Shown here one piece after another: positions 10,459 through 45,712 of a stretch of DNA of 55,403 bases (within the stretch, counting starts at the first letter, position 1; each line of letters begins with the position of its first letter). The translations under genes and the position numbers were made by a program. This DNA is from a virus. The stretch spans positions 1 through 55,403 of IMG/VR virus record IMGVR_UViG_3300051212_001061; one strand, given 5' to 3'. Below the pieces are notes generated by a model that had not been told where the DNA came from, made no database searches, and saw nothing but the letters and a program-made list of their open reading frames with translations.

Positions 10459-10459
10459 T

Positions 10460-11221: not shown

Positions 11222-11226
11222 TTATA

Positions 11227-14256: not shown

Positions 14257-14276
14257 TAAAAACTCAATAGTTTTTA

Positions 14277-14302: not shown

Positions 14303-14306
14303 ATGC

Positions 14307-14314: not shown

Positions 14315-14343
14315 ATAATGTAGTAGAGACAGTAGCAGTAAGA

Positions 14344-14928
14344 ATGAAGCATAAGCATCATATTGTTCCAAGACATATGGGTGGAACTGATGACCCATCA
14401 AATCTTGTTGAACTGACTGTTCAGGAACACGCAGAGGCGCATAGGAAACTTTGGGAGGAGTATGGAAATATTAAGGACTATGCTGCTTGGAAAGGTTTGT
14501 CTGGAACCATAGGTAAGGAAGAAATAGTTAAGATGTTAATGGACCCCACAGGAAGAAAACATAGTGAGGAAACTAAAAAGAAGATAAGTGAAGCATGTAA
14601 AGGAAAAAAATTAAGCGATAAAACCAAAGAAAAATTAAGTGCTATTAATAAAGGTAAAAAGTTGAGTGAAGAGCATAAGAAAAATATTTCCAAAAGTTTA
14701 AAAGGAGATCCCCGACTTGCTTCCAACTTGGGTAAGAATTTAAGTGAAGAACAAAAACAGAAGTTGCGTATTGCGAATATGGGAAATAAAAATGCTTCTG
14801 GTCCTCACAAAGTAAGTGAAAAATCTCGACAAAATAGAATAAATGCAACAAAGGAAAGATGGAGACAGTATAGAATATCAAAGGGATTGGACCCAGATAA
14901 ACCTGTTGATAAGAGATATAATAAGTAG
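14344..14928 (+). CDS. HNH homing-endonuclease-like protein with NUMOD3 repeats
   Basis: A 194-residue, very basic protein. Residues 1-35 (KHHIVPRHMGG..D..NLVELT..EHAEAH) match the HNH nuclease core in which the two His bind and activate at the scissile phosphate. Residues 70-148 hold four repeats of the NUMOD3 DNA-binding type (H/L-S-E-E-x-K-x-K-I-S pattern: RKHSEETKKKIS, KKLSDKTKEKLS, KKLSEEHKKNIS, KNLSEEQKQKLR). It lies between psbA and psbD as a free-standing gene with its own late promoter. Related free-standing endonucleases near psbA in cyanophages are reported to cut intronless psbA; whether this one does is not known. Confidence 0.85.
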   Translation: MKHKHHIVPRHMGGTDDPSNLVELTVQEHAEAHRKLWEEYGNIKDYAAWKGLSGTIGKEEIVKMLMDPTGRKHSEETKKKISEACKGKKLSDKTKEKLSAINKGKKLSEEHKKNISKSLKGDPRLASNLGKNLSEEQKQKLRIANMGNKNASGPHKVSEKSRQNRINATKERWRQYRISKGLDPDKPVDKRYNK

Positions 14929-14937
14929 AATTTCTTA

Positions 14938-14971
14938 TTGACTTTTATTGTAAAGTATTGTAAACTAAATA
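14938..14971 (+). promoter_or_regulatory. psbD promoter region
   Basis: TTGACT (14938-14943) and TAAACT (14961-14966) lie 17 bases apart, and CTAAATA (14965-14971), a late-promoter-like box, overlaps the -10. The psbD ATG is 24 bases after it. The match is weaker than for psbA. Confidence 0.5.
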
Positions 14972-14994
14972 TGAGAAATAATAAAGGAGGTTTG

Positions 14995-16056
14995 ATGGTT
15001 TCATCTACACTTTCAAAACCAATTCAACAAAGGGGGTGGTTTGATGTCTTGGATGATTGGCTTAAAAGAGACCGTTTCGTTTTTGTTGGCTGGTCTGGAC
15101 TTCTTCTTTTTCCCACTGCTTATCTTGCTCTTGGTGGTTGGCTTACTGGAACAACTTTCGTTACGAGTTGGTACACTCACGGGCTTGCAAGTTCCTATTT
15201 GGAGGGCGCGAATTTTCTTACAGCGGCAGTTAGTAGCCCAGCAGATTCTATGGGTCATTCTCTTCTTCTTCTCTGGGGTCCTGAGGCTCAAGGGGATTTC
15301 GTCAGATGGTGTCAACTTGGGGGACTCTGGACTTTTGTGGCGCTCCACGGAGCCTTCGCTCTTATAGGTTTCATGTTGCGTCAGTTTGAGATTGCTCGAC
15401 TGGTTGGCATCAGACCTTATAACGCAATCGCATTCTCTGGTCCTATTGCAGTATTCGTTTCAGTCTTCCTGATGTATCCACTGGGCCAATCCAGTTGGTT
15501 CTTTGCCCCATCATTTGGTGTGGCAGCAATCTTCAGGTTCCTGCTGTTCCTTCAGGGTTTCCACAACTGGACCCTCAACCCCTTCCATATGATGGGAGTT
15601 GCTGGTATACTGGGTGGAGCACTGCTCTGTGCCATTCATGGAGCAACTGTAGAAAACACACTTTATGAAGACGGTGAAAAAGCAAACACTTTCAAGGCAT
15701 TTGAACCAACTCAAGAGGAAGAGACCTATTCGATGGTTACTGCCAACAGATATTGGTCTCAAATCTTTGGTATTGCGTTTAGTAATAAGCGTTGGTTGCA
15801 TTTCTTTATGTTATTTGTTCCTGTCATGGGTCTTTGGACCTCTTCTATTGGCATTATTGGTCTTGCTCTTAATCTGAGAGCATATGATTTTGTGAGTCAA
15901 GAGATCAGAGCAGCAGAAGATCCAGAATTTGAAACGTTCTACACGAAAAATATCCTTCTAAACGAAGGTCTTCGTGCTTGGATGGCACCTGTAGACCAAC
16001 CTCATGAGAACTTTGTGTTCCCTGAGGAAGTTCTTCCGCGAGGTAATGCTCTCTAA
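14995..16056 (+). CDS. psbD: Photosystem II D2 protein
   Basis: A 353-residue, full-length D2. The blocks [49 protein letters not shown] and [20 protein letters not shown] are near-identical to cyanobacterial D2, with the chlorophyll and quinone-binding histidines present. The start is the ATG at 14995 because AAAGGAGG lies 5 bases before it; an earlier in-frame ATG at 14938 lies in the promoter and gives a non-conserved extension. D2 pairs with D1 in the photosystem II core. The first residues (VSSTLSKPI) are longer than in most hosts. A terminator follows. Confidence 0.99.
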
Positions 16057-17135: not shown

Positions 17136-17150
17136 TAGAAATGAGTTCTT
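17120..17150 (+). terminator. Perfect hairpin before talC, possible terminator
   Basis: AAGAACTCATT (17120-17130) pairs perfectly with AATGAGTTCTT (17140-17150) across a 9-base loop, followed by ACTTTTAT. The tail is weakly T-rich, so it could end the transcript of the phosphoesterase gene. It overlaps the -10 box of the talC promoter, so a transcript starting there would not include the 5' arm. Confidence 0.55.
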
Positions 17151-17158
17151 ACTTTTAT

Positions 17159-17818
17159 ATGAAGATCTTTTTAGATACTGCCGATGTTTCGATGATTAGT
17201 TCAGCATATGACACTGGACTATTGGATGGAATTACTACAAATCCCACTTTAATTTTCAAAAGTGGTAGACAACTTCAAGAAGTTATTGCTGAAATTTCAA
17301 ATATATTTCCAGATTTAGAAAGCATTTCTGCTGAGGTGGTTGCAGATACTGCCGAAGAAATGCTTTCACAAGCACAACAATATTACACAATCGCTCCTGC
17401 GGTTACAATCAAAGTTCCTTGTACAGTTGAAGGACTTAAGGCTTGTAAAACACTTTCCGACAAAGGAATTAAAACCAATGTAACTCTTGTGTTCTCGGTG
17501 GCACAGGCAATTCTTGCATCCAAAGCAGGGGCAACATTCATCTCACCTTTCGTTGGTCGTTGGATGGACAATTCTGTGGATGGAATTGAACTTATTAAAA
17601 ATATTCGTAAGGCATTTGATCATTCATTTTCACAAACAGAAATTCTTGCAGCATCTCTTCGTGATGTAAGACAGGTAGAGCAATCTGCTCTTAATGGCGC
17701 GGATGTAGTTACGATTCCCCCCATTGTGTTCTGGGGAATGTATAAGAACATTATGACTGATAAGGGTCTGGAACTCTTTCAGAAAGATTGGGAAGAAGTT
17801 TTAAAAAATAAAAAATAA
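17159..17818 (+). CDS. talC: Transaldolase, TalC/FSA type
   Basis: A 219-residue protein starting MKIFLDTADVSMISSAYD with DGITTNPTLI, the fructose-6-phosphate aldolase/TalC signature. The Schiff-base lysine is Lys85 in TIKVPCTVEGLKA. SPFVGRWMD follows. Transaldolase moves a dihydroxyacetone unit in the pentose phosphate pathway, and cyanophage TalC is thought to steer host carbon to NADPH and ribose-5-phosphate for nucleotide synthesis. The start is the ATG at 17159, matching the family; the upstream ATG at 17141 lies in the hairpin and is rejected. The family has long been known in cyanophages. Confidence 0.97.
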   Translation: MKIFLDTADVSMISSAYDTGLLDGITTNPTLIFKSGRQLQEVIAEISNIFPDLESISAEVVADTAEEMLSQAQQYYTIAPAVTIKVPCTVEGLKACKTLSDKGIKTNVTLVFSVAQAILASKAGATFISPFVGRWMDNSVDGIELIKNIRKAFDHSFSQTEILAASLRDVRQVEQSALNGADVVTIPPIVFWGMYKNIMTDKGLELFQKDWEEVLKNKK

Positions 17819-20955: not shown

Positions 20956-23900
20956 ATGGCAGACATACAAGTACGTGTAGGTGGGACAAATATTTCATCG
21001 ATAAAAGTCGGCCAAGAAAATGCTGTAAAAGTAGTTGCTAGTAGTTCTGGTGCTCAAGGATCGCAAGGAACTCAGGGGACTATTGGTTCTCAAGGAATTC
21101 AAGGAACACAGGGATTTACTGGTGGTATTGGTTCAATAGGATCTCAAGGTTTTCAAGGTATTCAAGGTCCTATTAGTAATTTTCAAGGAACTCAAGGTAA
21201 TCAAGGTATTCAGGGAACACAAGGTGCTCAGGGTACACAAGGTACTATTGGTTCTCAAGGATTACAAGGACTTCAAGGAGAAATAGGATCTCAAGGTGCT
21301 CAAGGTACACAAGGTACTATTGGTTCTCAAGGATTCCAAGGACTTCAGGGAGAAATTGGTTTTCAAGGTTCTCAAGGTATACAGGGAACCATTGGATCTC
21401 AAGGATTTCAAGGATCTCAGGGATCTCAAGGAACTATTGGTTCTCAAGGTGCTCAAGGTATTCAAGGAAACGACGGATCCCAAGGATTCCAAGGATCTCA
21501 GGGATCTCAAGGCACTATTGGTTCTCAAGGTGCTCAAGGTACACAAGGAATTATCGGTTCTCAAGGACTCCAAGGTACACAGGGAACTATTGGATCGCAA
21601 GGTGCTCAAGGTACACGGGGAACTATTGGATCGCAAGGTGCTCAAGGTACACAAGGAAATATCGGATCTCAAGGATCTCAAGGATTTCAAGGTGTATTTG
21701 GTTCTCAAGGATCGCAGGGAACTCAAGGTGTAATTGGTTTTCAAGGATCACAAGGTGCTCAAGGAACTCAAGGGACTATTGGATCACAAGGTGCTCAAGG
21801 TACACAAGGAACTATTGGTTCTCAAGGTACTCAAGGTACACAAGGCACTATTGGATTACAGGGATCTCAAGGTACACAAGGAACTATTGGATCACAAGGT
21901 GCTCAGGGAACACAAGGTATAATCGGTTCTCAAGGATTCCAAGGTACACAAGGAACAGCAGCCCCATCTTTAACTGTTAGTACAAGATCTGGATATTCTG
22001 GAATTAATAGTACAGATTCTGTATCAAATGTAAGTGCAATAAGGTTTGATAGAAATACTGGATTTGCTGTAACAAGTCTTGGTAATAATGAAGTTTTTGT
22101 TCAACTTGGAAGTAGTTTCAAAACATGGAATGTTGCTGGACAAGATTCTCTTATAGCAGTTGCTGAAGATACTGTAGAGTTTATTGCTGGTCCTGGAATT
22201 GCAATAACAACAAAAGCAACAGATCCTAAAACAATAACATTTTCAACTACTGCAGGTGTTGGTGCTCAAGGTGCTCAAGGAACTCAAGGATTGCAGGGAA
22301 ATCAAGGAACTATAGGTTCTCAAGGTTCTCAAGGTCTTCAGGGTGTTGGTGCTCAAGGTACACAAGGCACTATTGGTTCACAGGGTGCTCAAGGTACACA
22401 AGGCACTATTGGTTCACAAGGTGCTCAAGGTCTTCAGGGTGTTGGTGCTCAAGGATCACAAGGTACACAAGGCACTATTGGTTCTCAAGGATCACAAGGG
22501 ACTATTGGATCACAAGGTGCTCAAGGTCTTCAGGGAATCATAGGTTCTCAAGGTGCTCAAGGTACACAAGGAAATATCGGATCTCAAGGATCTCAGGGAT
22601 CTCAAGGCACTATTGGTTCTCAAGGATCACAGGGAACTCAAGGAACCATTGGATCACAAGGTTCTCAAGGTACACAAGGAACTATTGGTTCTCAAGGTGC
22701 TCAAGGTCTTCAAGGAGAAATTGGTTCTCAAGGTGCTCAGGGAACACAAGGAACGATTGGATCGCAAGGTGCTCAAGGAACTCAAGGTGTAATCGGTTCT
22801 CAAGGATCTCAAGGTACACAAGGTTCAATAGGACCTATTGCGGGTTCAAATAGTCAAATTATCTTTAATGACAATAATACTTCTGGTGCTTCTTCTAATC
22901 TTACTTTTGACAAAAATACTTCAACTCTTCAAGTTGGAGGTGTTTCTGGAACTGGGATTGGCATTAATACAAATACTATTACTGGTCCTTCCCAAATTAC
23001 TATTGATCCCTCTGCAATTGGAGATAATACTGGTTTAGTAAGAATCAAAGGTGATTTATATATTGATGGCACACAGACTTATATTAATTCGACAACAATT
23101 GAACTTGCTGACTTTAATGTTGGTATTGCAACTACTGTGGGAACTAATTTACTTCTTGATGGTGCTGGAATTGGAATTGGATCTACTAATATTCGTAAAA
23201 CTATAACATGGAATAATACTGCTGGAGCATTAACTTCCAGTGAAGATTGGAATTTAGTATCGGGTAAAAAATATGAGATTGATGGAATTTCTGTACTGGA
23301 CGCAACAACACTTGGAAATGGAATTACTAATTCGTCACTGACTTCTGTTGGTACATTAGGACAATTAAATGTTTCTGGTCTTTCTACTTTTGCAAATATT
23401 GTTGAGTTAAATGCAGGTCTAAAAGATATTTACAATAATGTAGGTGTTGCTGGTTCTGTTCTTATTTCTACTGGCGCTGGAATTTCTTGGACTAATCCTT
23501 ATGCTGCTGGATTGCAAGGTCTTCAGGGAACGATTGGATCTCAAGGTGCTCAGGGAACTCAAGGAACTATTGGTTCTCAAGGTGCTCAAGGTCTTCAGGG
23601 AATCATAGGTTCTCAAGGATCACAAGGTACACAAGGCACTATTGGTTCTCAAGGTGCTCAAGGTCTTCAAGGAACGATTGGATCTCAGGGATCTCAAGGC
23701 CTTCAAGGCACTATTGGTTCTCAAGGTGCTCAAGGTCTTCAAGGAACGATTGGTTCTCAAGGTGCTCAAGGTCTTCAGGGTCTTCAAGGTATAACCGGAA
23801 CTTTTGGTGCTAGGAATTATTCAGTAACAAATAGTGGTGCAAGTGATTACATTATAGATGGTTCAAATGATCCAACATTAAATTTACTGAGAGGATTTAC

Positions 23901-26811
23901 CTACACATTTAGTGTTAATGCTTCTGGGCATCCTTTTTGGATAAAAACTACACAAACTACTGGAACCGGAGATGCTTATAATACCGGAGTAACTAATAAT
24001 GGTACTGAAAGTGGAACAATTGTATTTGCAGTTCCTTATAATGCACCTGACACTTTATACTATATTTGTCAATATCATGGCAGTATGGTTGGGACCATAT
24101 CTATTACTGATATTGGACCTCAAGGAATTCAAGGTCTTCAAGGATCGATAGGTTCTCAGGGTACACAAGGAACTATTGGATCCCAGGGATCGCAAGGTCT
24201 TCAAGGAACTATTGGATCCCAGGGATCGCAAGGTCTTCAGGGAACTATTGGATCCCAGGGATCGCAAGGTCTTCAGGGAACTATTGGATCCCAGGGATCG
24301 CAAGGTCTTCAGGGAACTATTGGTTCTCAAGGTTCTCAAGGTACACAAGGCACTATTGGTTCTCAAGGTTCTCAAGGTACACAAGGCACTATTGGTTCTC
24401 AAGGTTCTCAAGGTACACAAGGCACTATTGGTTCTCAAGGTTCTCAAGGTGCTCAAGGTCCTGCTGGACCACCTGCCACTATAAGTGCATTAAATTATTC
24501 ACAAACTCTTGGAACAAAAGTAACCGTATTAAGTAGTGCTTCTTTCCCAGTTGGTATTGTTACAACCACTATTACTACAAGTGGGAACCCAGTTCAAGTT
24601 GTTGTAACTGGTGATGCAGAAAACGCAACTGCTGGCACTTGGGGTCGTATTCAGTTGTATAGAGATTCAACTGCAATCGGAAACGATGTTCAGTTTGAAA
24701 GTTCTGCTGGGAGTGAAAACTCTCCATTTGCAATTTCAGTCATCGATACTCCTTCTGCTGGAACATATTCTTATAGTTTAAAAGTTGTAACTTTAGCTGG
24801 AGGAAACTTTAATTTTGGTGAAAATACTGGCCCAGTTCTTTATGCTTATGAACTTGCAAACGTATTAGGTAATCAAGGCACTCAAGGTACTCAAGGTGTT
24901 GGGTCACAGGGTACTCAAGGATCTCAAGGACTTCAAGGCACTATAGGTTCTCAAGGACTTCAAGGTGTTCAAGGTGTTCAAGGACTTCAAGGTTTAAGTA
25001 ATCAAGGTTCTCAAGGACTTCAAGGCACTATAGGATCACAAGGTTCTCAAGGTCTTCAGGGAGAAATTGGTTCTCAAGGTGCTCAAGGTGCAATTGGTTC
25101 TCAAGGATCTCAAGGTCTTCAGGGAGAAATTGGTTCTCAAGGTCTTCAGGGAACTGTTGGATCACAAGGTGCTCAAGGTGCAATTGGTTCTCAAGGTTCT
25201 CAAGGTCTTCAGGGAACTGTTGGATCTCAAGGATCTCAAGGTACACAAGGAACCATTGGATCGCAAGGTTCTCAAGGTCTTCAAGGAGAAATTGGTTCTC
25301 AAGGTGCTCAAGGTCTTCAGGGAGAAATTGGTTCTCAAGGTGCTCAAGGTCTTCAGGGAGAAATTGGTTCTCAAGGTGCTCAGGGAACACAAGGAACGAT
25401 TGGATCACAAGGTGCTCAAGGTCTTCAGGGAGAAATTGGTTCTCAAGGTGCTCAGGGAACACAAGGAACGATTGGATCACAAGGTGCTCAAGGTCTTCAG
25501 GGAGAAATTGGTTCTCAAGGATTTCAGGGGACACAAGGAACTATTGGTTCTCAAGGTTCGCAGGGAACTCAAGGACAAACTGGATCGCAGGGAGTAGTAG
25601 GTAATATTTCTTATAATGTTTATAATTCTGGATCTTCATCCTATAGTATAAATTCTCAAAACAATCCAACTTTAGTTTTAGCAAGAGGATTTACCTATCA
25701 GTTTGTTATTGATGCTTCTGGACATCCTTTTTGGATTAAAACTACTCAAACAACTGGAACTAATGATGCTTATAATACTGGAGTTACTAATAATGGAACT
25801 GATAGTGGGACTATAACATTTGTAGTTCCTTTTGATGCTCCAAATACTTTATATTATAATTGCCAATATCATTCTTCAATGGCGGGAACTATTTCTGTCA
25901 ATGATTTTGGACAACAAGGAATTCAAGGTCTTCAAGGATTTACTGGAGGATCAGGAACTCAAGGATCGCAGGGTCTTCAAGGTGATAAGGGAATTGGTTC
26001 TCAAGGTGCTCAAGGTTTATCTGTTCAAGGTCTACAAGGACTTCAAGGACTTCAAGGACTTCAAGGATCTGGAAATCAAGGAACACAAGGTATTAGTAAT
26101 CAAGGAACTCAGGGAATTCCTGGTCCAGCTGGTCCAGATGGTGCTCAAGGTTCGCAAGGAACACAAGGAATTTCTGGATTATATGCTGGTCAAGGAACTC
26201 AAGGTCTTCAGGGTGCTGGTTTAGATGGAGCTCAAGGTTCTCAAGGACTTAGGGGATCTTACGATGCTCAAGGACTTCAGGGAACTCAAGGATTGGGAAT
26301 TCCCGGATCTCAAGGATCTCAGGGATCGCAAGGATTGAGGGGATCTTATGATGCCCAAGGATTGCAAGGTCTGCAGGGATTTTCTGGATCTATTGGTCTT
26401 GATGGATCTCAAGGCGCTCAAGGTATTGGTGGTCTTTATGCTGGACAAGGAACTCAGGGACTTGGTGGAGGGTTTAGAGTTTTTAGATCATCAACTCCAC
26501 CTAATATTTCGACAGTTTCTGGTGATTATTGGATTGATGAGGATGATGGAATTACATATACATGGTTTGATGATGGTGATTCTCAACAGTGGGTTGAGTT
26601 TGGACCAACTCCACAACAAGTTAATATTGGAGTCAGTGGATTCGGAATTTCAACGAGTGGTGGATTTGTTGGATTTACTACTTATCTAAGTCTTGAAGGT
26701 CCTGGTGTTTCTACCGTAACAGTTTCTGCGGGAATTGCAACAATAAATATAACAGGAGGAGGAGCAGGAACTCCTGATATAAGTCCAGTAATGATGGGGA
26801 TGATTTTCTAA
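20956..26811 (+). CDS. Giant collagen-like tail fibre protein with two cupredoxin-like domains
   Basis: A 1951-residue virion adhesion protein. Gly-X-Y blocks at about 32-334, 436-631, 851-951, 1054-1173, 1305-1549 and 1651-1839 are built mainly from a 12-residue unit (GTIGSQGAQGTQ type), with Gln rather than Pro in Y. They should form trimeric collagen-like rods. Between them lie globular segments: about 335-435, 632-850, 1174-1304, and two homologous domains at about 952-1053 and 1550-1650. Those two carry the cupredoxin-like ligand set His992, Cys1038, His1041, Met1044 and His1590, Cys1636, His1639, Met1642 (SGHPFWIK; LYYICQYHGSM, LYYNCQYHSSM). The C-terminal approximately 110 residues are non-repetitive. 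It follows a late promoter and leads the fibre gene group. Function in host recognition is inferred; copper binding is not shown. Confidence 0.85.
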   Translation: MADIQVRVGGTNISSIKVGQENAVKVVASSSGAQGSQGTQGTIGSQGIQGTQGFTGGIGSIGSQGFQGIQGPISNFQGTQGNQGIQGTQGAQGTQGTIGSQGLQGLQGEIGSQGAQGTQGTIGSQGFQGLQGEIGFQGSQGIQGTIGSQGFQGSQGSQGTIGSQGAQGIQGNDGSQGFQGSQGSQGTIGSQGAQGTQGIIGSQGLQGTQGTIGSQGAQGTRGTIGSQGAQGTQGNIGSQGSQGFQGVFGSQGSQGTQGVIGFQGSQGAQGTQGTIGSQGAQGTQGTIGSQGTQGTQGTIGLQGSQGTQGTIGSQGAQGTQGIIGSQGFQGTQGTAAPSLTVSTRSGYSGINSTDSVSNVSAIRFDRNTGFAVTSLGNNEVFVQLGSSFKTWNVAGQDSLIAVAEDTVEFIAGPGIAITTKATDPKTITFSTTAGVGAQGAQGTQGLQGNQGTIGSQGSQGLQGVGAQGTQGTIGSQGAQGTQGTIGSQGAQGLQGVGAQGSQGTQGTIGSQGSQGTIGSQGAQGLQGIIGSQGAQGTQGNIGSQGSQGSQGTIGSQGSQGTQGTIGSQGSQGTQGTIGSQGAQGLQGEIGSQGAQGTQGTIGSQGAQGTQGVIGSQGSQGTQGSIGPIAGSNSQIIFNDNNTSGASSNLTFDKNTSTLQVGGVSGTGIGINTNTITGPSQITIDPSAIGDNTGLVRIKGDLYIDGTQTYINSTTIELADFNVGIATTVGTNLLLDGAGIGIGSTNIRKTITWNNTAGALTSSEDWNLVSGKKYEIDGISVLDATTLGNGITNSSLTSVGTLGQLNVSGLSTFANIVELNAGLKDIYNNVGVAGSVLISTGAGISWTNPYAAGLQGLQGTIGSQGAQGTQGTIGSQGAQGLQGIIGSQGSQGTQGTIGSQGAQGLQGTIGSQGSQGLQGTIGSQGAQGLQGTIGSQGAQGLQGLQGITGTFGARNYSVTNSGASDYIIDGSNDPTLNLLRGFTYTFSVNASGHPFWIKTTQTTGTGDAYNTGVTNNGTESGTIVFAVPYNAPDTLYYICQYHGSMVGTISITDIGPQGIQGLQGSIGSQGTQGTIGSQGSQGLQGTIGSQGSQGLQGTIGSQGSQGLQGTIGSQGSQGLQGTIGSQGSQGTQGTIGSQGSQGTQGTIGSQGSQGTQGTIGSQGSQGAQGPAGPPATISALNYSQTLGTKVTVLSSASFPVGIVTTTITTSGNPVQVVVTGDAENATAGTWGRIQLYRDSTAIGNDVQFESSAGSENSPFAISVIDTPSAGTYSYSLKVVTLAGGNFNFGENTGPVLYAYELANVLGNQGTQGTQGVGSQGTQGSQGLQGTIGSQGLQGVQGVQGLQGLSNQGSQGLQGTIGSQGSQGLQGEIGSQGAQGAIGSQGSQGLQGEIGSQGLQGTVGSQGAQGAIGSQGSQGLQGTVGSQGSQGTQGTIGSQGSQGLQGEIGSQGAQGLQGEIGSQGAQGLQGEIGSQGAQGTQGTIGSQGAQGLQGEIGSQGAQGTQGTIGSQGAQGLQGEIGSQGFQGTQGTIGSQGSQGTQGQTGSQGVVGNISYNVYNSGSSSYSINSQNNPTLVLARGFTYQFVIDASGHPFWIKTTQTTGTNDAYNTGVTNNGTDSGTITFVVPFDAPNTLYYNCQYHSSMAGTISVNDFGQQGIQGLQGFTGGSGTQGSQGLQGDKGIGSQGAQGLSVQGLQGLQGLQGLQGSGNQGTQGISNQGTQGIPGPAGPDGAQGSQGTQGISGLYAGQGTQGLQGAGLDGAQGSQGLRGSYDAQGLQGTQGLGIPGSQGSQGSQGLRGSYDAQGLQGLQGFSGSIGLDGSQGAQGIGGLYAGQGTQGLGGGFRVFRSSTPPNISTVSGDYWIDEDDGITYTWFDDGDSQQWVEFGPTPQQVNIGVSGFGISTSGGFVGFTTYLSLEGPGVSTVTVSAGIATINITGGGAGTPDISPVMMGMIF
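21049..26470 (+). repeat. Tandem 36-base collagen-like repeats, six blocks
   Basis: Six blocks (about 21049-21957, 22261-22848, 23506-23806, 24115-24474, 24868-25600 and 25906-26470) consist of 9- and 36-base units encoding Gly-X-Gln triplets, with some long near-identical runs (for example 24170-24310, where 36-base units recur almost unchanged). Such tracts can change length by recombination or slippage. They also keep several other frames open, giving false ORFs. Confidence 0.9.
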
Positions 26812-26812
26812 A

Positions 26813-27175
26813 ATGGCAGCACCAAATCTAAAAAATCCTACTAGTATTGTTGGAATAACAACAGTTGTAAAATTAACTACCAATAACATTACTGGCGTCC
26901 TTACTAATTTGTCAAATAGTAACAAAGTTTTAAAAATCAATAGTATTTTTGCTGCAAATGTTGATGGAGTTAATAACGCAGATATAAGTATTTCTATACT
27001 GAGAGATTCTAGTGATGTTTATATTGCAAGGACTATAACTGTTCCTGCAGACTCCACACAAATCATTTCAACCAAGGAAAGTTATTTTTATGTAGAAGAA
27101 AACGTTGGTATTCGTGCTCAGGCTAGTGTGGCAAATGATATTGATATTGTAATTTCTTATGAGGAGATTTCATAA
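26813..27175 (+). CDS. Small virion structural protein
   Basis: A 120-residue beta-rich protein beginning MAAPNLKNPTSIVGITTVVK. Ser, Thr and Asn are abundant (ISISILRDSSDVYIARTITVPADSTQII), Cys is absent, and the pattern of alternating hydrophobic residues suggests a beta-sandwich. Proteins of this type sit between fibre genes in cyanophages and are found in virions; the role is inferred from position. It starts one base after the fibre stop and shares a base with the next gene. Confidence 0.6.
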   Translation: MAAPNLKNPTSIVGITTVVKLTTNNITGVLTNLSNSNKVLKINSIFAANVDGVNNADISISILRDSSDVYIARTITVPADSTQIISTKESYFYVEENVGIRAQASVANDIDIVISYEEIS

Positions 27176-30100
27176 TGAAAATGATAAGTGGAAGTCTTCC
27201 AACCACACCACAAGGATTATTAAAGGGTATTTTTTTTCCAGATGATAATGTTCGTAATGAAGTAATATCTGGTGATATTGTTCGTTATGGGTATACTAAT
27301 AAATCTTTTTCTGTTGGTCTTCAAAATGGTGTTCCGTATTCAGTTGTGATAAGTACTGACGGAACTAATATGTATGTTATTTCCAATCAACAAGTTTTTC
27401 AATATACATTATCGACCCCGTTTGAAATTAATACCGCAACTTATGCAAATAAAAGTTTATCGTTTGGTTCAATCGAAGGTAATGGGCAAGGTCTATCAAT
27501 AAGTAATGATGGTGTTAATCTTTATATTAATGGAAACACAAATGATAGAATAGTCCAATATGTTATGACCACTCCATGGGATCTTGCGACTGCTAAACTA
27601 CCACCTCAAGTAAAAACTCTTGTGGTTTCATCTCAAGGAGAAACCGAACCACATGGAATGTCTTTTGGTGACTCGGGAACTAAACTTTATGTTGTAGGAA
27701 ATACAAACGATACGATATATCAATACACATTAAGTACTGCATATGATGTTTCCACTGCAACTTATGCAAACAAATCTTATTATGTTGGTGCTGTAGATTC
27801 TTTTCCTACAGGAATCGATTTTAAACCAGATGGAACTCGGTTTTATATTCAAGGCGGATCTAATGCTAGATTGTACCAATTTACATGCACTACACCATGG
27901 GACATTAGCACTGCTAGATACTTATTAACCCCATCTCCAGTTTTTTCTGGTGTTGGAACCGTTGGGGAGCAACAACCTACTGGAATGTATGTCGGTGACT
28001 CTGGAACAAAACTTTATATTATAGGAAATTGGAACGATACGATATATCAATATACTTTATCCACTCCATATGATGTTTCTACTGCAACTTATGCCAGTAA
28101 ATCTTTTTTAATTACAAGTCAAACTAGTTATGGAACTGGAATATTTTTTAAACCAGATGGAACAAAAGCTTATATATCTGATGGACTTAACGACAGAGTT
28201 TTTGAATATATACTGACCACTGCTTGGGATATTAGTACTGCTAGTCATTTACCATCATTTTCAATATCTTTAGCTTCTCAAGAAAGTCTTGTGACTGGAA
28301 TGGCATTTAAATCTGATGGAACTGCTGTTTATGTTATTGGTACAAATAATGATACGATATATCAATATACTCTAAGCACTGCTTGGGACGTTTCTACGGC
28401 ATCTTATGCGTCTAAAAGTTTTTCTGTTAATGCTCAGGATACTTCTCCTAGAGGTATTACGTTTAAAACTGACGGAACTAAAGTTTATGTCATGGGAGAC
28501 ACGAATGATAGAGTATATCAATATAGTTTAAGTACGGCATGGGATATTAGTACTGCATCTTATGATTCTAAAAGTTTTCTTGTAAGTGGACAAGATAGTG
28601 CAGGAAATGATCTTTATTTTAAAACCGATGGTGCTAAAATGTACATCCTCGGTGATACGAACAATAGAGTATATGAATATACTTTAAGCACCGCATGGGA
28701 CGTTAGTACTGCAACTAGTTCAACTAACGTAGCTGTACAAACGGAAACTTTAACTGGATTAACTTTTAATTCGGATGGAACTTCTTTTTATGTGATCGGA
28801 ACTACAAATGATGTTGTTTATCAATATAATATGTCTACTGCTTGGCTTGTTAGTAGTGCGACATTAGTATCTCAAACTGTTAGACCAACTATTTTGCAGG
28901 ATACATCTCCAGTAGCAATAAGTTTTAATTCTGACGGAACTAAGATTTTTCTTTTGGGGGATAGTAATGACCGAATATATCAATATGAAGTAAGCACCGC
29001 ATACACAACTAGTACAATGAATGTTGGATATGTTCCGATGTCATCTACTTCATATGAATGTAGAGATCTTGCTTTTAGTAGTGATGGGACAAAATTATAT
29101 CTTGCCCAATATTCTTCTGGATCAACAGATTATATTGAACAATATAATTTAAGTGTTGCTTGGAATATTTCAACTGCAGTCACTAGCTATTTTTTAACTT
29201 CTCCAGATACTATTCCTGAAGCAATATCTTTTAAATCCGATGGAACTAAACTGTATGTATTGGGAGGCACTAATGATAAAATATATCAATATACTTTAAG
29301 TACTCCTTGGTCTCTTTCTACTGCCACTCAAAATACATTACAAAACGTCACATATGTTGGATTGCAAGATATTTCTCCCACTGGAATGCATTTTAATGCC
29401 GATGGTACTCGTGTTTATGTTTTGGGAGATAATACCGATAGAATATATCAATATGAAATAGAAGATGCTTGGAATATGAATAGTATGAATATGGGATATT
29501 TCCCAATATCTAATATCTGGGGTAGTGCAAGTTATACTATTCGTGATATTAAATTTAAACCTGATGGAACTAGGTTTTTTTGTCCTATCTATGCTCCTTC
29601 TACTACCGATTACATAGCGCAATTTACATTAACTGCAAACGCTTGGAATATATGTGCTTTATCTTCAACTTCTGCATCTATTTCATCACCTGATATTCAA
29701 CCAGAAGGAATTGCACTTAAATCGGACGGAACTCGGTTGTACATGGTGGGACTTGGTAATGATAGAATTTATGAATATACTCTATCGGTTCCTTGGGATC
29801 TGGGAAGTGGCACAGTAACACAACAATCTCATAATCATAATGGATATATTGGATATTTTGAAACTGAAGGTAGGGCTTTAGAAGTAAGTGCCGATGGAAC
29901 TAAAATATATGTTATTGGATCTGGAAGCGATACTGTTTTTCAGATGGATATGACAACGCCATGGATTCTTGATACGATGAATGTTGGATTTAAATCTCTT
30001 GCTGGTCAAGAAGGAACTTCTTATGGGCATACTATGTCCTATGATGGATCCAAGGTTTATGTTATTGGAGCAAATGATACGATATATCAATATAGTTTAA

Positions 30101-30420
30101 CAACTCCATTTAATTTGGGATCTTTTTCATATGAAAGTAAATCTTTATCCATTTCCGCCGTTTCATTTGATGCTAGAGATTTGTTTATTAATAAAAACGG
30201 AACAAAAATATATACTATAGATCAATCCCAAGATAGAGTATATCAATATAATTTATCAACACCTTTTGATATAACAACGGCAACTTATTCCACTAAAAAT
30301 ATATCAATTGTTACTAATGAAATAACCGGAGAAGGATTAACGTTTTCTCAAAACCTTGACAGACTGTATGTTGTTGGTACAAATAGTGATACAGTATATC
30401 AGTATGATTTTAATTTTTAG
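27175..30420 (+). CDS. Large beta-propeller-repeat fibre protein
   Basis: A 1081-residue protein made of about 20 imperfect repeats of about 50 residues. Each has SDGTKLYVLG-N-D-R-I-Y-Q-Y-T-L-S-T-x-W-D-I-S-T-A, with a preceding G-I-x-F block. The S/D-G-T-K-x-Y-V strand and the Y-Q-Y strand recall YVTN/NHL/TolB-like beta-propeller blades. Twenty blades would make two or three propellers in a row. No signal peptide or enzyme motif is present. Position between fibre genes argues for a virion adhesion role, perhaps binding surface glycan or protein. Some units differ in the two central positions. Confidence 0.75.
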   Translation: MKMISGSLPTTPQGLLKGIFFPDDNVRNEVISGDIVRYGYTNKSFSVGLQNGVPYSVVISTDGTNMYVISNQQVFQYTLSTPFEINTATYANKSLSFGSIEGNGQGLSISNDGVNLYINGNTNDRIVQYVMTTPWDLATAKLPPQVKTLVVSSQGETEPHGMSFGDSGTKLYVVGNTNDTIYQYTLSTAYDVSTATYANKSYYVGAVDSFPTGIDFKPDGTRFYIQGGSNARLYQFTCTTPWDISTARYLLTPSPVFSGVGTVGEQQPTGMYVGDSGTKLYIIGNWNDTIYQYTLSTPYDVSTATYASKSFLITSQTSYGTGIFFKPDGTKAYISDGLNDRVFEYILTTAWDISTASHLPSFSISLASQESLVTGMAFKSDGTAVYVIGTNNDTIYQYTLSTAWDVSTASYASKSFSVNAQDTSPRGITFKTDGTKVYVMGDTNDRVYQYSLSTAWDISTASYDSKSFLVSGQDSAGNDLYFKTDGAKMYILGDTNNRVYEYTLSTAWDVSTATSSTNVAVQTETLTGLTFNSDGTSFYVIGTTNDVVYQYNMSTAWLVSSATLVSQTVRPTILQDTSPVAISFNSDGTKIFLLGDSNDRIYQYEVSTAYTTSTMNVGYVPMSSTSYECRDLAFSSDGTKLYLAQYSSGSTDYIEQYNLSVAWNISTAVTSYFLTSPDTIPEAISFKSDGTKLYVLGGTNDKIYQYTLSTPWSLSTATQNTLQNVTYVGLQDISPTGMHFNADGTRVYVLGDNTDRIYQYEIEDAWNMNSMNMGYFPISNIWGSASYTIRDIKFKPDGTRFFCPIYAPSTTDYIAQFTLTANAWNICALSSTSASISSPDIQPEGIALKSDGTRLYMVGLGNDRIYEYTLSVPWDLGSGTVTQQSHNHNGYIGYFETEGRALEVSADGTKIYVIGSGSDTVFQMDMTTPWILDTMNVGFKSLAGQEGTSYGHTMSYDGSKVYVIGANDTIYQYSLTTPFNLGSFSYESKSLSISAVSFDARDLFINKNGTKIYTIDQSQDRVYQYNLSTPFDITTATYSTKNISIVTNEITGEGLTFSQNLDRLYVVGTNSDTVYQYDFNF

Positions 30421-40295: not shown

Positions 40296-41009
40296 ATGAA
40301 CATTGTAATACCAATGGCTGGGGAAGGAACTAGATTTCCCAGAGATACTTATAAAATTCCAAAACCATTAATTGAAATTAATGGAGTTCCGATGATTAAA
40401 ATGGCGACAGAATCTTTAGGATTAACTGGAACTTATCATTTTGTAATACGGAAGGATAGTTATTATGATCAGGTATGTACTCTCCTTCATGCTATTTTTC
40501 CAACATCTAAAATTATCAGTGTAGATGAAACGACTGAAGGTCCAGCATCTAGTTGTCTTCTTTTTAGAGATTTAATTGATAATGAAGATGAACTTGTAAT
40601 TGCAAATTGTGATCAAATTATGTGGTGGGATCCAGATTTATTTCTTACTGCAGCAAGATATTATAAGTATGATGGATTGATTGTTACTTACAGTACATCG
40701 ACGCCAAAAAACAGTTATGCTAGAATTGATAAAAATGGTTTTGTTCGAGAAATAAAAGAAAAAGAAGTTATAAGTGATATTTCATTAAATGGGATTCATT
40801 ATTGGAGAAAGGGAAAGTATTTTGTACAAAGTGCAGAAAGTATGATAAAATATAATGATAGAGCACCTAATGGTGAATTTTATGTTGGACCAACTTATAA
40901 TCACATGATTAACCAGGGCCTTAAAGTAGGTATTCATCACATACCCAATTGGCAGCATAATCCAGTTGGAGTTCCAGAAGATTTAGAAACTTTTATTTCA
41001 AAATTATGA
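40296..41009 (+). CDS. Sugar-phosphate nucleotidylyltransferase
   Basis: A 237-residue protein with NIVIPMAGEGTRF, the G-x-G-x-R loop of NTP transferases, KIPKPLIEINGVPMI (substrate lysine) and IANCDQIMWW (acidic metal site). YSTSTPKNSYARI and GEFYVGPTYNHMI complete the family pattern. It is a paralogue of the protein at 1768-2490, so each glycan cassette has its own nucleotidyltransferase. It overlaps a cupin gene by 4 bases. Product sugar unknown. Confidence 0.83.
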   Translation: MNIVIPMAGEGTRFPRDTYKIPKPLIEINGVPMIKMATESLGLTGTYHFVIRKDSYYDQVCTLLHAIFPTSKIISVDETTEGPASSCLLFRDLIDNEDELVIANCDQIMWWDPDLFLTAARYYKYDGLIVTYSTSTPKNSYARIDKNGFVREIKEKEVISDISLNGIHYWRKGKYFVQSAESMIKYNDRAPNGEFYVGPTYNHMINQGLKVGIHHIPNWQHNPVGVPEDLETFISKL

Positions 41010-41329
41010 ATCTGAGTAAATTAAAAGATTATCATAGGGGATGGATCATTGGTGATTTTGATCCATCTGTTTTAAGAACAAAAGATTTTGAAGTTGGAGT
41101 TCTGTTTCATCCCAAAGGTGAAAAATGGGCAGCACATTATCATAAGGATAGTGTAGAATATAATGTATTAATTAATGGAAAAATGATTATCCAGGGTAAA
41201 GAACTTAATTCTGGAGATGTATTTGTTTTTGAAAAGGGAGAAATTGCAGATCCAGTTTTTATTGAGGATTGCACAGTTTTGTGTGTAAAAGTTCCCTCCA
41301 TTCCTTTAGACAAATATGAGGTAAAATAA
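41006..41329 (+). CDS. Cupin-fold protein
   Basis: A 107-residue single-domain protein. KWAAHYHKDSVEYNVLINGK is the first cupin block (H-x-H...E), with Gly-rich turn, and LNSGDVFVFEKGE is the second. Small cupins in sugar clusters are often epimerases or isomerases, or metal-binding regulators; the metal-ligand His-x-His and Glu are present here, but the second block's His is missing. It sits between a nucleotidyltransferase and a methyltransferase. Confidence 0.75.
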   Translation: MNLSKLKDYHRGWIIGDFDPSVLRTKDFEVGVLFHPKGEKWAAHYHKDSVEYNVLINGKMIIQGKELNSGDVFVFEKGEIADPVFIEDCTVLCVKVPSIPLDKYEVK

Positions 41330-42045
41330 TGTACGCTTATTCGATTAAAGTAGATTTAAACAATTCTAAAACTCAATTATGTGAGTTGGGATCCAAATAT
41401 GAAACTACCAAATCTCCATTTTTGGATTTTAATTTGAACAATAATCTTGAAAGGAGAGAATGTAATTCTTATACTCCATTTTATAATTTTTTGTTCTCTT
41501 CATTGAAGTATAAAAAAATTAATTTTGGAGAAATTGGAATCTATAAAAATGGTTCAATGAAAATGTGGAGGGATTATTTTCCTAATGCTAATCTTTATGG
41601 TTGGGATTGTAAACCAGAATCTGCGGATGAACCTAGATATAGAGTTGTTGATTTTGTTGAAAAAGCAAAAAAAGACAATTTAATTAATGTCTCTTATGAT
41701 TATATGGATGTTAGGGGAGAGGAATCAATTTCTCGGGCATTGGGAAAAACAAAATGTAAATTTGACATTTTAATTGACGATTCTGATCATGAATTTTGGT
41801 CTCAAATAAAAGTGATCAGAAGTGCTCCAAATTATTTGAATCCAGGATCTTTTTTAATCATAGAAGATGTAAATTATACAGTCACTCCCGAATATTCTTT
41901 TGCAAGATATATAGAAGAAATATCTAGATATGGTCATGACGTTTACTATGATTCTATATTAAAAGTTAATACAAAACATTTTAAAGAAACAACAAGACAT
42001 CCAAACAGTTGTTTAATAGTCTTGACCAGAAATAATTTTAATTAA
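41329..42045 (+). CDS. Class I SAM-dependent methyltransferase (TylF-like)
   Basis: A 238-residue protein. INFGEIGIYKNGSMKMWRDYFP is a degenerate SAM motif I (E-x-G) followed by ANLYGWDCKPE, in place of the acidic post-I residue. KFDILIDDSDHEFWSQIKV gives the D-D-x-x-H block seen in macrocin O-methyltransferase (TylF) relatives, which bind metal with these acidic residues. SFLIIEDV follows. It likely methylates a sugar hydroxyl. It shares one base with the cupin gene. Confidence 0.65.
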   Translation: MYAYSIKVDLNNSKTQLCELGSKYETTKSPFLDFNLNNNLERRECNSYTPFYNFLFSSLKYKKINFGEIGIYKNGSMKMWRDYFPNANLYGWDCKPESADEPRYRVVDFVEKAKKDNLINVSYDYMDVRGEESISRALGKTKCKFDILIDDSDHEFWSQIKVIRSAPNYLNPGSFLIIEDVNYTVTPEYSFARYIEEISRYGHDVYYDSILKVNTKHFKETTRHPNSCLIVLTRNNFN

Positions 42046-42062: not shown

Positions 42063-43301
42063 ATGAAGTTTTTTAGAGAACTGACTGAACAAGAAAAAAA
42101 TCGTTGTGTAGTTGCAACGTATAAAATGAGTTCCTTTAAAGACATTGGAACCTTAAAAGATGTTGCTTGGAACCTTGCCATAGGACAAAGTGTTGGCAAT
42201 CCTAAGATTAGAAATGCTTGGGAAACTGATGAACTTTTTGAGCAATCTTCTTGTGTTATATACGAAGAAGAAAAATATCTTGAATCTGTAGGAGCAGGAA
42301 TTGTTAAAATTGGATTCCCAATTATCAACACTGATTGGGAAGGTGATGGAATATCTCATTTGATGTGCCAATTAATGGGTGGACAACTTGATATAGATGT
42401 TGTTAGGACTTGCAGACTAGAAAAAATAGAATTTCCTAAAGAGGTTGAAGATAAATTTCTTGGACCTAAAAATGGCATTGATGGAATTCGTAAGTTTGTC
42501 AATCGTTATGATAAACCACTTTCTGGTGCTATTGTAAAACCAAAGACTGGTATTTCACCACAAACTCTTTCTGAAATGGTGAAAGAACTTCTTGATGGTG
42601 GAGTAGATTTTATTAAAGAAGATGAGATTCTTGCAAACCCATCTTTTTGTAGTCTTGAAGATCGTGTAGAACTTATTTCTAATATTGTCAACAACTGCGG
42701 TAGAAATGTCATCTATGCTTTCTGTATTAATGGTGATCATCATACCGTTCTTGATCGTGCTAAGTTTGTTGCTGATAATGGTGGAAATGGTATTCATATT
42801 AATTTTTGGTCTGGTCTTGGGGTTTATAATTCAATTAGAAAAATGGACCTACCGCTGTTTATTCACTATCAGAAGAGTGGGGACAAAATTCTTACGGATA
42901 AACGCCACGCATTTGGAATAGATTGGAATGTTCTTTGCGACCTTGCTGGTCTATGTGGTGTGGATACTATTCATGCTGGAATGTGGGGTGGATATTTAAG
43001 TGATGATGAAGATGAACTTCGTCAAACTCTTGATATTTTACATCGTCGGAATGTTCTTCCTGCATTAAGTTGTGGTATGCACCCAGGAATCGTTAATACC
43101 ACTGCAGAAAAGTTCGGAACAGATTTTCTTGCAAATTGTGGTGGAGCAATCCATGGGCACCCCGAAGGCACCTTAGCGGGCGCTCTAGCTATGCGTCAGG
43201 CAATAGATAAAACACCTGGACCAGAGTTTCGTGCTGCCATAGATAAGTGGGGTTATGAAACTGGAGGTGGATCACTTCCCGAATGGGTGCTTGAGTTTTA
43301 A
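42063..43301 (+). CDS. RuBisCO-like protein (RuBisCO large-subunit superfamily)
   Basis: A 412-residue protein homologous to RuBisCO along its length. The N-terminal domain has ATYKMSS, GQSVGN and KIGFPIINT. The barrel holds GAIVKPKTGIS (Lys159 and Lys161, matching Lys175/177), GGVDFIKEDE (Lys185, Asp187, Glu188, matching the carbamate Lys201, Asp203, Glu204), FIHYQ (His268 = His294, but Tyr269 where Arg295 should be), DTIHAGMWGGY (His304 = His327; Tyr311 where Lys334 should be), LSCGMH (Ser336 = Ser379) and NCGGAIHGHPEG. Loss of Arg295 and Lys334 equivalents points to a non-carboxylating, form IV-like enzyme, perhaps an enolase, isomerase or decarboxylase acting on a sugar phosphate. It lies in a glycan cassette, after a methyltransferase and before an FkbM-type one. 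Confidence 0.9.
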   Translation: MKFFRELTEQEKNRCVVATYKMSSFKDIGTLKDVAWNLAIGQSVGNPKIRNAWETDELFEQSSCVIYEEEKYLESVGAGIVKIGFPIINTDWEGDGISHLMCQLMGGQLDIDVVRTCRLEKIEFPKEVEDKFLGPKNGIDGIRKFVNRYDKPLSGAIVKPKTGISPQTLSEMVKELLDGGVDFIKEDEILANPSFCSLEDRVELISNIVNNCGRNVIYAFCINGDHHTVLDRAKFVADNGGNGIHINFWSGLGVYNSIRKMDLPLFIHYQKSGDKILTDKRHAFGIDWNVLCDLAGLCGVDTIHAGMWGGYLSDDEDELRQTLDILHRRNVLPALSCGMHPGIVNTTAEKFGTDFLANCGGAIHGHPEGTLAGALAMRQAIDKTPGPEFRAAIDKWGYETGGGSLPEWVLEF

Positions 43302-43332: not shown

Positions 43333-43980
43333 ATGGTTCCTGTTATTCCTAGTTTACAAGTATTTGTTGATAAAATTCGTGAAGTTTATGGTGATAAAGA
43401 TCCAGAAGTTATTTTAGATATTGGATCTAGAGATTTGGATTGTAGTGTAGATCTTCTTAAATATTTTCCTGAAGCGAGAATTATTGCATTTGAACCAATC
43501 CCTTGGCAATATAACAATTGTTTAGAAAGAGCAAATAAACTTTATAATATTGAAGTTTATAATTTTGCATTATCCGATGAAGAAGGTGAATTGGACTTTT
43601 GGGAAGTTCATGGAAATCCAGGAGGATCATCCATGTTTGAACCGATTGATGTTCCTTATAGTTCTGGATCATGGTCTAAAACTGTAGTTCAATCAAGAAG
43701 ATTAGATAATGTTCTAAAAAGCTTAAATGTTTCAAAAGTTGATTGTATTTGGATGGATACGCAAGGATCTGAACTCAAAGTTCTTAAAGGTATGGGAACT
43801 TATCTAGATTCTGTTAGGGCTATTCATACCGAAGCATGTCCAAAACCATATTATAAAGGGCAAGTTTTGAAGAGTGATTTGGAAAATTATTTAATTGAAA
43901 ATAATTTTATTATCGATCAATTTATAGCTGCTCCTAATCATCCTTACGATGAAGGTGATTTAATTTGCATTAAAAAATAA
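43333..43980 (+). CDS. FkbM-family methyltransferase
   Basis: A 215-residue protein. VILDIGSRDLDCSVDLLKYFP is SAM motif I, IIAFEPIPWQY has the Glu that binds the ribose, and KVDCIWMDTQGSELKVLKGM is the classic FkbM block. It probably methylates a hydroxyl on a sugar or polyketide-like group; in phages the family is found in glycan clusters. GGAGA lies 8 bases before the ATG. Neighbours are the RuBisCO-like gene upstream and a GT2 gene 5 bases downstream. Confidence 0.88.
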   Translation: MVPVIPSLQVFVDKIREVYGDKDPEVILDIGSRDLDCSVDLLKYFPEARIIAFEPIPWQYNNCLERANKLYNIEVYNFALSDEEGELDFWEVHGNPGGSSMFEPIDVPYSSGSWSKTVVQSRRLDNVLKSLNVSKVDCIWMDTQGSELKVLKGMGTYLDSVRAIHTEACPKPYYKGQVLKSDLENYLIENNFIIDQFIAAPNHPYDEGDLICIKK

Positions 43981-43985: not shown

Positions 43986-44903
43986 ATGATTGATTTCAAA
44001 GTATCTTTAATATGTGCATGTAAAAATAGATATAATGCTCTTAGAGTTGCATTAAATTCTTGGTTGGCGTTTGATCAAATACATGAAATTATAATTGTTG
44101 ATTGGGATTCTGATGAATCTATTTCACATCTATCTAAATTAGATGATAGAATTAAAATTATTGAGGTTAAAAGCAAACCGTATTTTAATCAACCTCAACC
44201 TTTAAATCTTGCTGCAAGTATTGCTACTGGAAATTACATCTTAAAAGTGGATTGTGATTACATTCTCAATCCATATTATAATTTTTTTGATGCATATCCA
44301 GTAGATAATAATACTTTTATTTCTGGCAAGAGTAATTATCAAGCTCCTGAGTATTATTCCGAATCTCATGGTGGATATGTAATCGACATGCATCAAATGA
44401 GACCAGAAGAAATTGTTGATTATACTGTTTCTTATAGTCCTTATTTTAAATTTTTAATTGGTCTTTTATTAATCAGCAAAGAAAATTTCTTGAGATGTGG
44501 TGGATATAACGAAAATCTTACTAAATGTTATGCTTTTGAAGATGAAGAACTTTATGCTAGATTAAAATTGATGGGTCTTAAAGAAACTAGATTACGTCAT
44601 GATTATCATGCAATTCATATTCCTCATCCTGATAAAAAAAGAACGGAATATTTTGAGGGATTTTCTTGGGAATCTGATTTCATAAAAATGGTTCAAGAAA
44701 ATATGAGAAATCAGGGACATACTGAGCAGGAAGTTCAATGGCAAGTTGAATATGCTTTAGCTCAAAAACATATTGACCAAAATAAAGAAATGATTGGTGA
44801 AATTACCGAATATTGTGTTCAATCAAAATCAAATTGGAGAGTTTATGAGATGTGTAAAAATGTATACAACGCTATAGAAGTTTTACCATTAAATAAATTA
44901 TGA
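43986..44903 (+). CDS. GT2-family glycosyltransferase
   Basis: A 305-residue GT-A enzyme. VSLICACKNRYNALRVALNSW is the N-terminal nucleotide-binding strand and ILKVDCDYIL has the D-x-D motif; CYAFEDEELYARLKLMG gives the catalytic E-D-x-E block (the acceptor-activating base). The GT2/GT27 likeness is strong in these blocks. The C-terminal about 80 residues form a helical tail (VQWQVEYALAQKHIDQNKE). It overlaps the next gene by 4 bases. Donor and acceptor unknown. Confidence 0.88.
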   Translation: MIDFKVSLICACKNRYNALRVALNSWLAFDQIHEIIIVDWDSDESISHLSKLDDRIKIIEVKSKPYFNQPQPLNLAASIATGNYILKVDCDYILNPYYNFFDAYPVDNNTFISGKSNYQAPEYYSESHGGYVIDMHQMRPEEIVDYTVSYSPYFKFLIGLLLISKENFLRCGGYNENLTKCYAFEDEELYARLKLMGLKETRLRHDYHAIHIPHPDKKRTEYFEGFSWESDFIKMVQENMRNQGHTEQEVQWQVEYALAQKHIDQNKEMIGEITEYCVQSKSNWRVYEMCKNVYNAIEVLPLNKL

Positions 44904-45712
44904 TGTATTCTGATTTCACTTTAGTAGTTCAGGGTCCAACTAATGACTCTACTAAAATAGATTTTTTAGATTCTATAGATTACTATAAGACCCTATTCTC
45001 TAAAATAATATTATCAACTTATGACGAGCATATTTGTGATAATAAAAATCTTTTAAAAATATGTGAAGAAAAAAACATAGAAATAGTAACTCAAAGTCTA
45101 GAGAATGGAATAAACAATCTATCATTTAAAGACTTTGATGAAAATCATGACATGGATAATGATTGTGGAATTAAATTCCAAACTGTTAGTACTTTAATTG
45201 CTTTAAAAAATGTTCATACTCCTTATGTTTTAAAACACAGAGTTGATGAAAGATATTCAAATTTGCATTTGATCTTGGATAAGTTTTTATTAGATACTGA
45301 AAAATTAGTAACTGGTGGAACTTTTTTTGGGCAAAAAGTTTATTTTGAATATTGTGCAGCAGATCATTTAATGGTTTCTAGAACTGGCAAAATGATAAAC
45401 ACATTTGAAAAAACTTTAGAGATGATAAATTCTGGTATTTTAGATAGTGGACCAGAAATAATGTATACAAAAAATTTCATTAGAATTTCTGGAGAAAATC
45501 CTACAAGTGAAAATCACGATATTCTTATGAAAAAGTATATTGATTTCTTACCGGACAAATATATGGAACCATTTGTTATACGTGCAAATCATTGGAATCA
45601 GATTTGGACAACTGCAGAATCTCTGGGTCATAGAAGAAATGCCTATGAAACGATAGATGATATGATAAACAGTGAAATCGTAGTTTTAAATCAATTTTAT
45701 AATTATAGTTGA
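44900..45712 (+). CDS. WavE-like glycosyltransferase
   Basis: A 270-residue protein with VVQGP (residues 9-13), then SKIILSTYDEH and LKHRVDERYSNL (111-122); these are the defining blocks of WavE-type transferases (Q-G-P, I-I-L-S-T/W and K-x-R-x-D). It is longer and closer to the family than the related protein at 2490. Two adjacent ATG codons start the frame, the first overlapping the previous stop. Its role is probably transfer of a sugar in lipopolysaccharide-like glycan synthesis. Confidence 0.72.
   Translation: MMYSDFTLVVQGPTNDSTKIDFLDSIDYYKTLFSKIILSTYDEHICDNKNLLKICEEKNIEIVTQSLENGINNLSFKDFDENHDMDNDCGIKFQTVSTLIALKNVHTPYVLKHRVDERYSNLHLILDKFLLDTEKLVTGGTFFGQKVYFEYCAADHLMVSRTGKMINTFEKTLEMINSGILDSGPEIMYTKNFIRISGENPTSENHDILMKKYIDFLPDKYMEPFVIRANHWNQIWTTAESLGHRRNAYETIDDMINSEIVVLNQFYNYS

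Follow-up and report, generated by a model that had tools for sequence, protein, structure and literature searches.

The open reading frame (ORF) at positions 42063–43301 (+ strand) of the 55,403-base virus record analysed here, which we call the window, is a real gene for a full-length RuBisCO-superfamily protein of 412 amino acids, a RuBisCO-like protein (RLP), as judged from the ORF call, Pfam matches, predicted fold and residue alignment. The residues used in CO2 fixation have been lost from this protein and a nucleotidyltransferase (NTase) gene almost always adjoins its own, so that the probable role of the RLP is to provide an uncommon sugar unit from which surface or phage glycans are built.

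The reading frame is single and intact. Comparison of its product with Pfam revealed matches above the curated cut-offs for both RuBisCO domains: RuBisCO_large (PF00016) at residues 138–382, with an E value of 1.3e-43 and 149.8 bits against a cut-off of 30.1, and RuBisCO_large_N (PF02788), at 2.9e-4 and 21.5 bits against 20.7. An AlphaFold2 model, calculated from an alignment of 21 relatives, has a pLDDT of 92.5 and a pTM of 0.90 and predicts a RuBisCO-like TIM-barrel fold. The top PDB match in a Foldseek search was the type III RuBisCO 2d69, which follows the model over its whole length with a TM score of 0.85 (E = 8e-34) and 27% identity; the Chlorobium RLP 1tel is 23% identical to the window protein in the fold search. 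These matches bear out the original prediction, made from the DNA alone, of a full-length RuBisCO-like protein. The dN/dS ratio against close viral relatives, ∼0.07–0.11, indicates strong purifying selection.

For the active site, 101 family members were aligned with forms I–III, MtnW, OiaX and IV-NonPhoto sequences, and positions are given in spinach numbering. The spinach and R. rubrum sequences anchor this table and the trees described below, and the numbering rests on the spinach sequence as used here. Residues K175, K177, K201, D203, E204, S379, G381, G403 and G404 are kept in all members or in all but one or two; K175, K177 and the carbamate/Mg set K201, D203 and E204 are 100% conserved, as expected of RuBisCO, and carbamylation is predicted. 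H327 is retained in 91 of the 101 proteins. The family has replaced E60 with Gly, T65 with Asn, N123 with Gly, H294 with Gln, K334 with Tyr and G380 with Cys, and R295 has become Lys in 96 of 101 members, a position that is still basic. The residues that mark a carboxylase, E60, N123, H294, R295 and K334, thus read G, G, Q, K and Y in essentially every member. We conclude from the table that the family still has the Mg2+/carbamate site and the general-base lysine but has lost the residues that in RuBisCO position CO2 and relay protons. Judged by its sequence, the RLP is not a carboxylase, the residues for CO2 addition and RuBP binding having been replaced, and the table rules out a reading of the protein as one.

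In the window protein, the kept residues are Lys159/Lys161 (K175/K177), Lys185, Asp187 and Glu188 (K201, D203 and E204), His304 (H327), Ser336 (S379) and Gly360–361 (G403–404), all of which had been named correctly in the original prediction, together with the Tyr at K334 (Tyr311) and the loss of N123 (Gly107). Two of its other assignments fail when the 101 proteins are aligned to spinach. The Tyr that it placed at R295 reflects a misalignment, this position being Lys271, and His268, which it listed among the kept residues, aligns with the non-catalytic position 292. The true His294 position is occupied by Gln270, which is invariant in the family and had been overlooked; E60 and T65 correspond to Gly41 and Asn46.

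A tree of 55 sequences places the family in a clade of its own (ultrafast bootstrap 100%, SH-aLRT 99%), apart from forms I, II and III, MtnW and OiaX/IV-NonPhoto; forms I–III lie together outside it, and the family does not group with them. A quick tree of 77 rows agrees on the separate clade. The sister of the clade is uncertain, MtnW being weakly placed there (90/79). The first proposal of a form IV-type RLP is supported. The NCBIfam scores of the protein fall below every curated RuBisCO, MtnW and OiaX cut-off, with 164.7 and 128.2 bits for the MtnW models (cut-offs 409 and 513.6) and 158.6 bits for the OiaX model (cut-off 700); these scores and the tree rule out both MtnW and OiaX as identities.

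Form III RuBisCO (Pyrococcus 2cwx/2d69, Thermococcus 3a12) has in common with the window RLP the fold (TM 0.85), 27% of residues and K175/K177/K201-D203-E204, but in the RLP E60, T65, N123, H294, R295 and K334 are replaced, the clade is separate and the score is 208.8 bits against a cut-off of 497. MtnW, the 2,3-diketo-5-methylthiopentyl-1-phosphate enolase (form IV-YkrW), shares Gly at position 60 with the RLP family but lacks K177, R295 and H327, whereas the family retains K177, a basic Lys at 295 and mostly H327; no methionine-salvage genes were seen among the RLP's neighbours. The OiaX/IV-NonPhoto RLPs (3nwr type), which act on phosphorylated sugar derivatives, also keep the carbamate site, but they have lost K177 and kept H294, R295 and K334, the reverse of the pattern found here. 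K177 is accordingly present in the RLP family and forms I–III and lost in MtnW, OiaX and IV-NonPhoto. Novel marine RuBisCO-type groups have been described (Yooseph 2007, PMC1821046), as has an IV-GOS group of RLPs (Tabita et al. 2007, cited in PMC10173188). IV-GOS is, like the RLP family, marine and uncharacterised, a likeness of descriptions and not of sequences. The references in our trees are those of forms I–III, MtnW and OiaX/IV-NonPhoto, and not of IV-GOS, IV-Photo, IV-AMC or DeepYkrW, so that the clade may correspond to the IV-GOS group of 2007. No viral or glycan-module context for IV-GOS emerged from the open-access papers searched.

The window is from a Synechococcus T4-like phage: psbA and psbD are present with an endonuclease-like ORF between them, and the closest matches at the DNA level are to S-PM2 and other T4-like phages of Synechococcus. 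The same genes and matches support the cyanophage label in the original prediction. The three genes lie at 13174–16056, with the endonuclease-like ORF at 14344–14928, in an arrangement as in S-PM2. Among other window genes, reading of the sequence picks out a transaldolase-like ORF (TalC type) at 17141–17818, a 1951-residue protein with collagen-like GSQG repeats at 20956–26811, probably a tail fibre, and a 1081-residue protein of repeated 'DTIYQYTLSTAWDVSTA' units at 27175–30420, possibly a propeller-like fibre.

Relatives of the RLP were sought widely. There was no match in the 50,697 cultured-phage records of INPHARED, no RuBisCO fold in the BFVD library of viral models and no PHROG family for the RLP; the first two results agree with the earlier remark that a RuBisCO-superfamily gene is not known among cyanophages. 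At least 249 IMG/VR stretches encode relatives, and at least 356, from many samples, do so when the family profile is used. Among 50 viral RLP records checked, psbA/psbD-type genes were found in at least six and a T4-type prohead protease in at least seven, counts that are minima because the records are fragments. One of the latter is a viral contig of 518,643 bases (IMGVR_UViG_3300017917_001342), which has the RLP module. Many RLP records are without psbA, including T4-like ones of 170–200 kb, a comparison that fragments limit; these long records rule out a cyanophage-only distribution, and the idea of a cyanophage-specific gene has to be given up. On the cellular side, relatives were found in genomes of SAR11, Legionella, Azospirillum, Elusimicrobia, Verrucomicrobiia and DPANN. 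Such copies are rare: two of the 297 SAR11-order genomes have one, as do four of 22 in the Legionella genus group. A further contig, filed as Sphingobacteriales (JAAXIF010000028.1, locus L101 in genome G008), has genes of phage type, among them a PhoH-like ORF, and is probably a misbinned phage.

Analysis of the gene neighbourhood reveals what is constant and what is variable around the RLP. In the window, all on the + strand, it is preceded by a sugar-phosphate NTase of 237 residues (40296–41009; PF00483, 3.6e-8), a small cupin of 107 residues (41006–41329; a weak Cupin_7 match and PHROG 24762) and a methyltransferase-like protein of 238 residues (41329–42045; PHROG 21658, in a cluster of nine proteins). 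It is followed by an FkbM methyltransferase of 215 residues (43333–43980; PF05050, 9.9e-19, in a cluster of four), a family 2-type glycosyltransferase of 305 residues (43986–44903; PF10111, 6.9e-9) and a WavE-like LPS-synthesis protein of 270 residues (44900–45712; PF07507, 4e-4, below the cut-off). ORFs were predicted around 102 RLP loci, grouped into clusters and searched with family HMMs. An NTase of ∼240 residues lies within four genes of the RLP in 95 of the loci, the cupin is near it in 69 and a glycerophosphodiesterase (GDPD)-like protein in 72; the usual order is NTase-cupin-RLP. Four of the seven loci without the NTase are cut near a contig end, and one more, from Azospirillum, has an NTase ∼380 bases downstream, found by a genome-wide search. 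In all 10 cellular genomes searched, the top genome-wide match to the NTase family directly adjoins the RLP, and the runner-up generally scores far lower, as in Legionella nautarum (254 bits against 32); five of the 10 (G002, G003, G318, G004 and G010) contributed no row to the profile, and one (G008) is the probable phage contig mentioned above.

The glycosyltransferases and methyltransferases around the NTase/RLP pair, FkbM included, differ between loci, and the methyltransferase-like protein upstream of the RLP occurs in only some. A fixed link of the RLP to FkbM and glycosyltransferase genes, expected from the original prediction of a glycan cassette, is ruled out across the 102 loci, those genes being variable cargo. 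The sugar-nucleotide side of that prediction stands through the constant NTase, and is stronger than could be known from the window, because the adjacent NTase recurs across viruses, SAR11, Legionella, Azospirillum, Elusimicrobia and DPANN. The nearest PDB relative of this NTase is an uncharacterised pyrophosphorylase, the others being mostly sugar-1-phosphate enzymes. In Legionella, the RLP has the NTase on one side and, on the other, a gene of the LicD family, which comprises phospho-choline/polyol transferases.

All elements of the GDPD catalytic set (HR, E.D, H, K) are retained in the small GDPD-like protein, whose confident model is closest to GDPDs. At 150–160 residues (L019:9241–9717, L026:9914–10366 and others; pLDDT 93), about two-thirds of the normal length, it is possibly, on the basis of the model, a minimal GDPD. 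The DPANN locus has a full-length GDPD and the Verrucomicrobiia locus a GDPD-like ORF. An HMM search of all six frames of the window found no such gene, which rules out GDPD as an obligatory partner there; either it is not obligatory or it lies elsewhere in the genome. Several loci (L025–L035) have, downstream of the RLP, a kinase-like protein (APH/fructosamine kinase), a 3-dehydroquinate synthase-like sugar phosphate cyclase and a short-chain dehydrogenase, which suggest a cyclitol route. Two SAR11 loci (L090:4930–5667, L094:9219–9959) carry, on the opposite side of the RLP, a second, divergent NTase-like protein from which the usual GxGxRF motif is missing. The window itself encodes a second NTase of the same family (1768–2490, + strand; family HMM, 4.5e-80) in another glycan cassette (543–12018) that has no RLP; this cassette also contains a KdsC-like HAD phosphatase, a PfkB-type kinase-like protein and, by reading, GDP-mannose dehydratase-, GDP-fucose synthase- and fucosyltransferase-like ORFs.

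Cultured Synechococcus phages without an RLP carry the same NTase family, at 28–41% identity, fused to other enzymes: an RpiB/LacAB isomerase in Bellamy (L104:7992–9149), DHBP synthase in S-SKS1 (L107:6001–7428) and a HAD phosphatase in S-CAM9 (L103:4341–5726). In Bellamy, the NTase-RpiB fusion is followed by the same cupin as in RLP loci, an arrangement that looks as if RpiB had replaced the RLP. The substrates of RpiB and DHBP synthase are 5-phosphates of a pentose or pentulose, and this suggests a similar substrate for the RLP. By analogy with these fusions, a pentulose or tetrulose phosphate would be the likeliest substrate class.

Overall, the interpretation that we favour, with moderate confidence, is that the RLP is an enolase or isomerase that uses Mg and a carbamyl-lysine to act on a ketose phosphate, and that its product would then be nucleotide-activated for glycan synthesis. 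The phosphorylated ketose would be held on Mg2+ at carbamyl-Lys185, and Lys159 would remove the proton next to the keto group. Re-protonation of the enediolate elsewhere would bring about isomerisation or epimerisation, decarboxylation being less likely. The product would pass to the adjacent NTase to give an NDP-linked ketose or polyol donor, which phage-encoded glycosyl- or phosphotransferases could use to remodel a glycan. Of the role first proposed, action on a phosphorylated sugar outside CO2 fixation, the non-carboxylase character and the sugar-nucleotide link are sustained and the tie to the methyltransferase and glycosyltransferase genes is not; the substrate itself we infer. NTases acting on a ketose phosphate are known from the Campylobacter CDP-6-fructose/CDP-6-glucitol pathway (HS5.18/HS5.17, PMC10918830), where, as proposed for the RLP module, one activates it for a surface polysaccharide, in that case the capsule. 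That pathway uses an SDR reductase and has no RLP, and the likeness drawn here is one of role. In a pelagimyophage study, such phage glycan genes are proposed to modify the host O-chain as a defence against superinfection (PMC7029224); the RLP-module product could equally serve to glycosylate the phage particle.

The RLP might instead come after the NTase and epimerise or isomerise the keto sugar of a donor already linked to NDP. The gene linkage fits this equally well, as does the usual order NTase-cupin-RLP, and a nucleotide could be accommodated through the changes at T65 and K334, which belong to the P1 phosphate site. We nevertheless consider it unlikely, since the phosphate-site residues S379, G381, G403/404 and H327 are kept and position 295 is still basic; moreover, to our knowledge the RLPs characterised so far all act on simple phosphorylated substrates. 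Less probable still is a catabolic decarboxylase or transcarboxylase like OiaX, with the phosphate of a branched or oxo-sugar acid as its substrate. OiaX-type RLPs do such chemistry (PMC6302742) and the OiaX profile does show weak similarity (158.6 bits), but this is far under the cut-off of 700, the clade is separate, the pattern at K177 and H294/R295/K334 is reversed, and no OiaX-pathway gene is found among the annotated neighbours. The loss of several RuBisCO catalytic residues could point to a non-catalytic structural or regulatory protein, or the gene to an assembly artefact or contamination; we regard either as very improbable given a metal/carbamate set invariant in 101 members and the low dN/dS, and the psbA/psbD and T4-type genes on the same contig and recurrence across many samples, in at least 356 IMG/VR stretches, rule out contamination. 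A functional carboxylase that raises CO2 fixation by the infected host, a role proposed for other viral rbcL, has the predicted fold, the carbamate site and a soil viral rbcL reported to be active (PMC12615777) in its favour, but is scarcely credible in view of the invariant replacement of E60, N123, H294 and K334, the occurrence of the family in glycan clusters of heterotrophs (SAR11, Legionella) and the lack of Calvin-cycle neighbours.

Neither the residues nor the context of a carbon-fixation auxiliary metabolic gene are thus found. Viral rbcL has been listed among carbon-fixation genes in soils, landfills and estuaries (PMC12607003, PMC12615777, PMC13390420), and a RuBisCO-superfamily gene in viruses therefore has precedent. 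Those genes are, like the RLP, RuBisCO-family genes on viral contigs, and the landfill one fell among 'RbcL-like' proteins; the reports discuss CO2 fixation. In the available portions of the open-access viral rbcL literature, we found no description of the replaced residues of the RLP clade or of the NTase module, and an open-access literature search yielded no reports of RLPs in SAR11 hypervariable regions or of rbcL as 'RuBisCO-like' in phages.

The RLP family is common in viral metagenomes and absent from cultured phage records. Automated pipelines may call its members rbcL and count them as viral CO2 fixation, which the active site contradicts. We put at about even the chances that the family, found mainly in T4-like viruses and sporadically in SAR11, Legionella, Azospirillum, Elusimicrobia and DPANN, represents an undescribed reaction class of the RuBisCO superfamily that feeds a ketose-phosphate product to a dedicated NTase for surface or phage glycans. 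The conserved NTase/RLP gene pair is a directly testable two-enzyme system. Known RLP roles lie in methionine salvage, recycling of S-adenosylmethionine by-products and sugar-acid catabolism; a role in activated-sugar biosynthesis, if true, would be new chemistry for the RuBisCO fold and might also explain what the long-uncharacterised IV-GOS group does.
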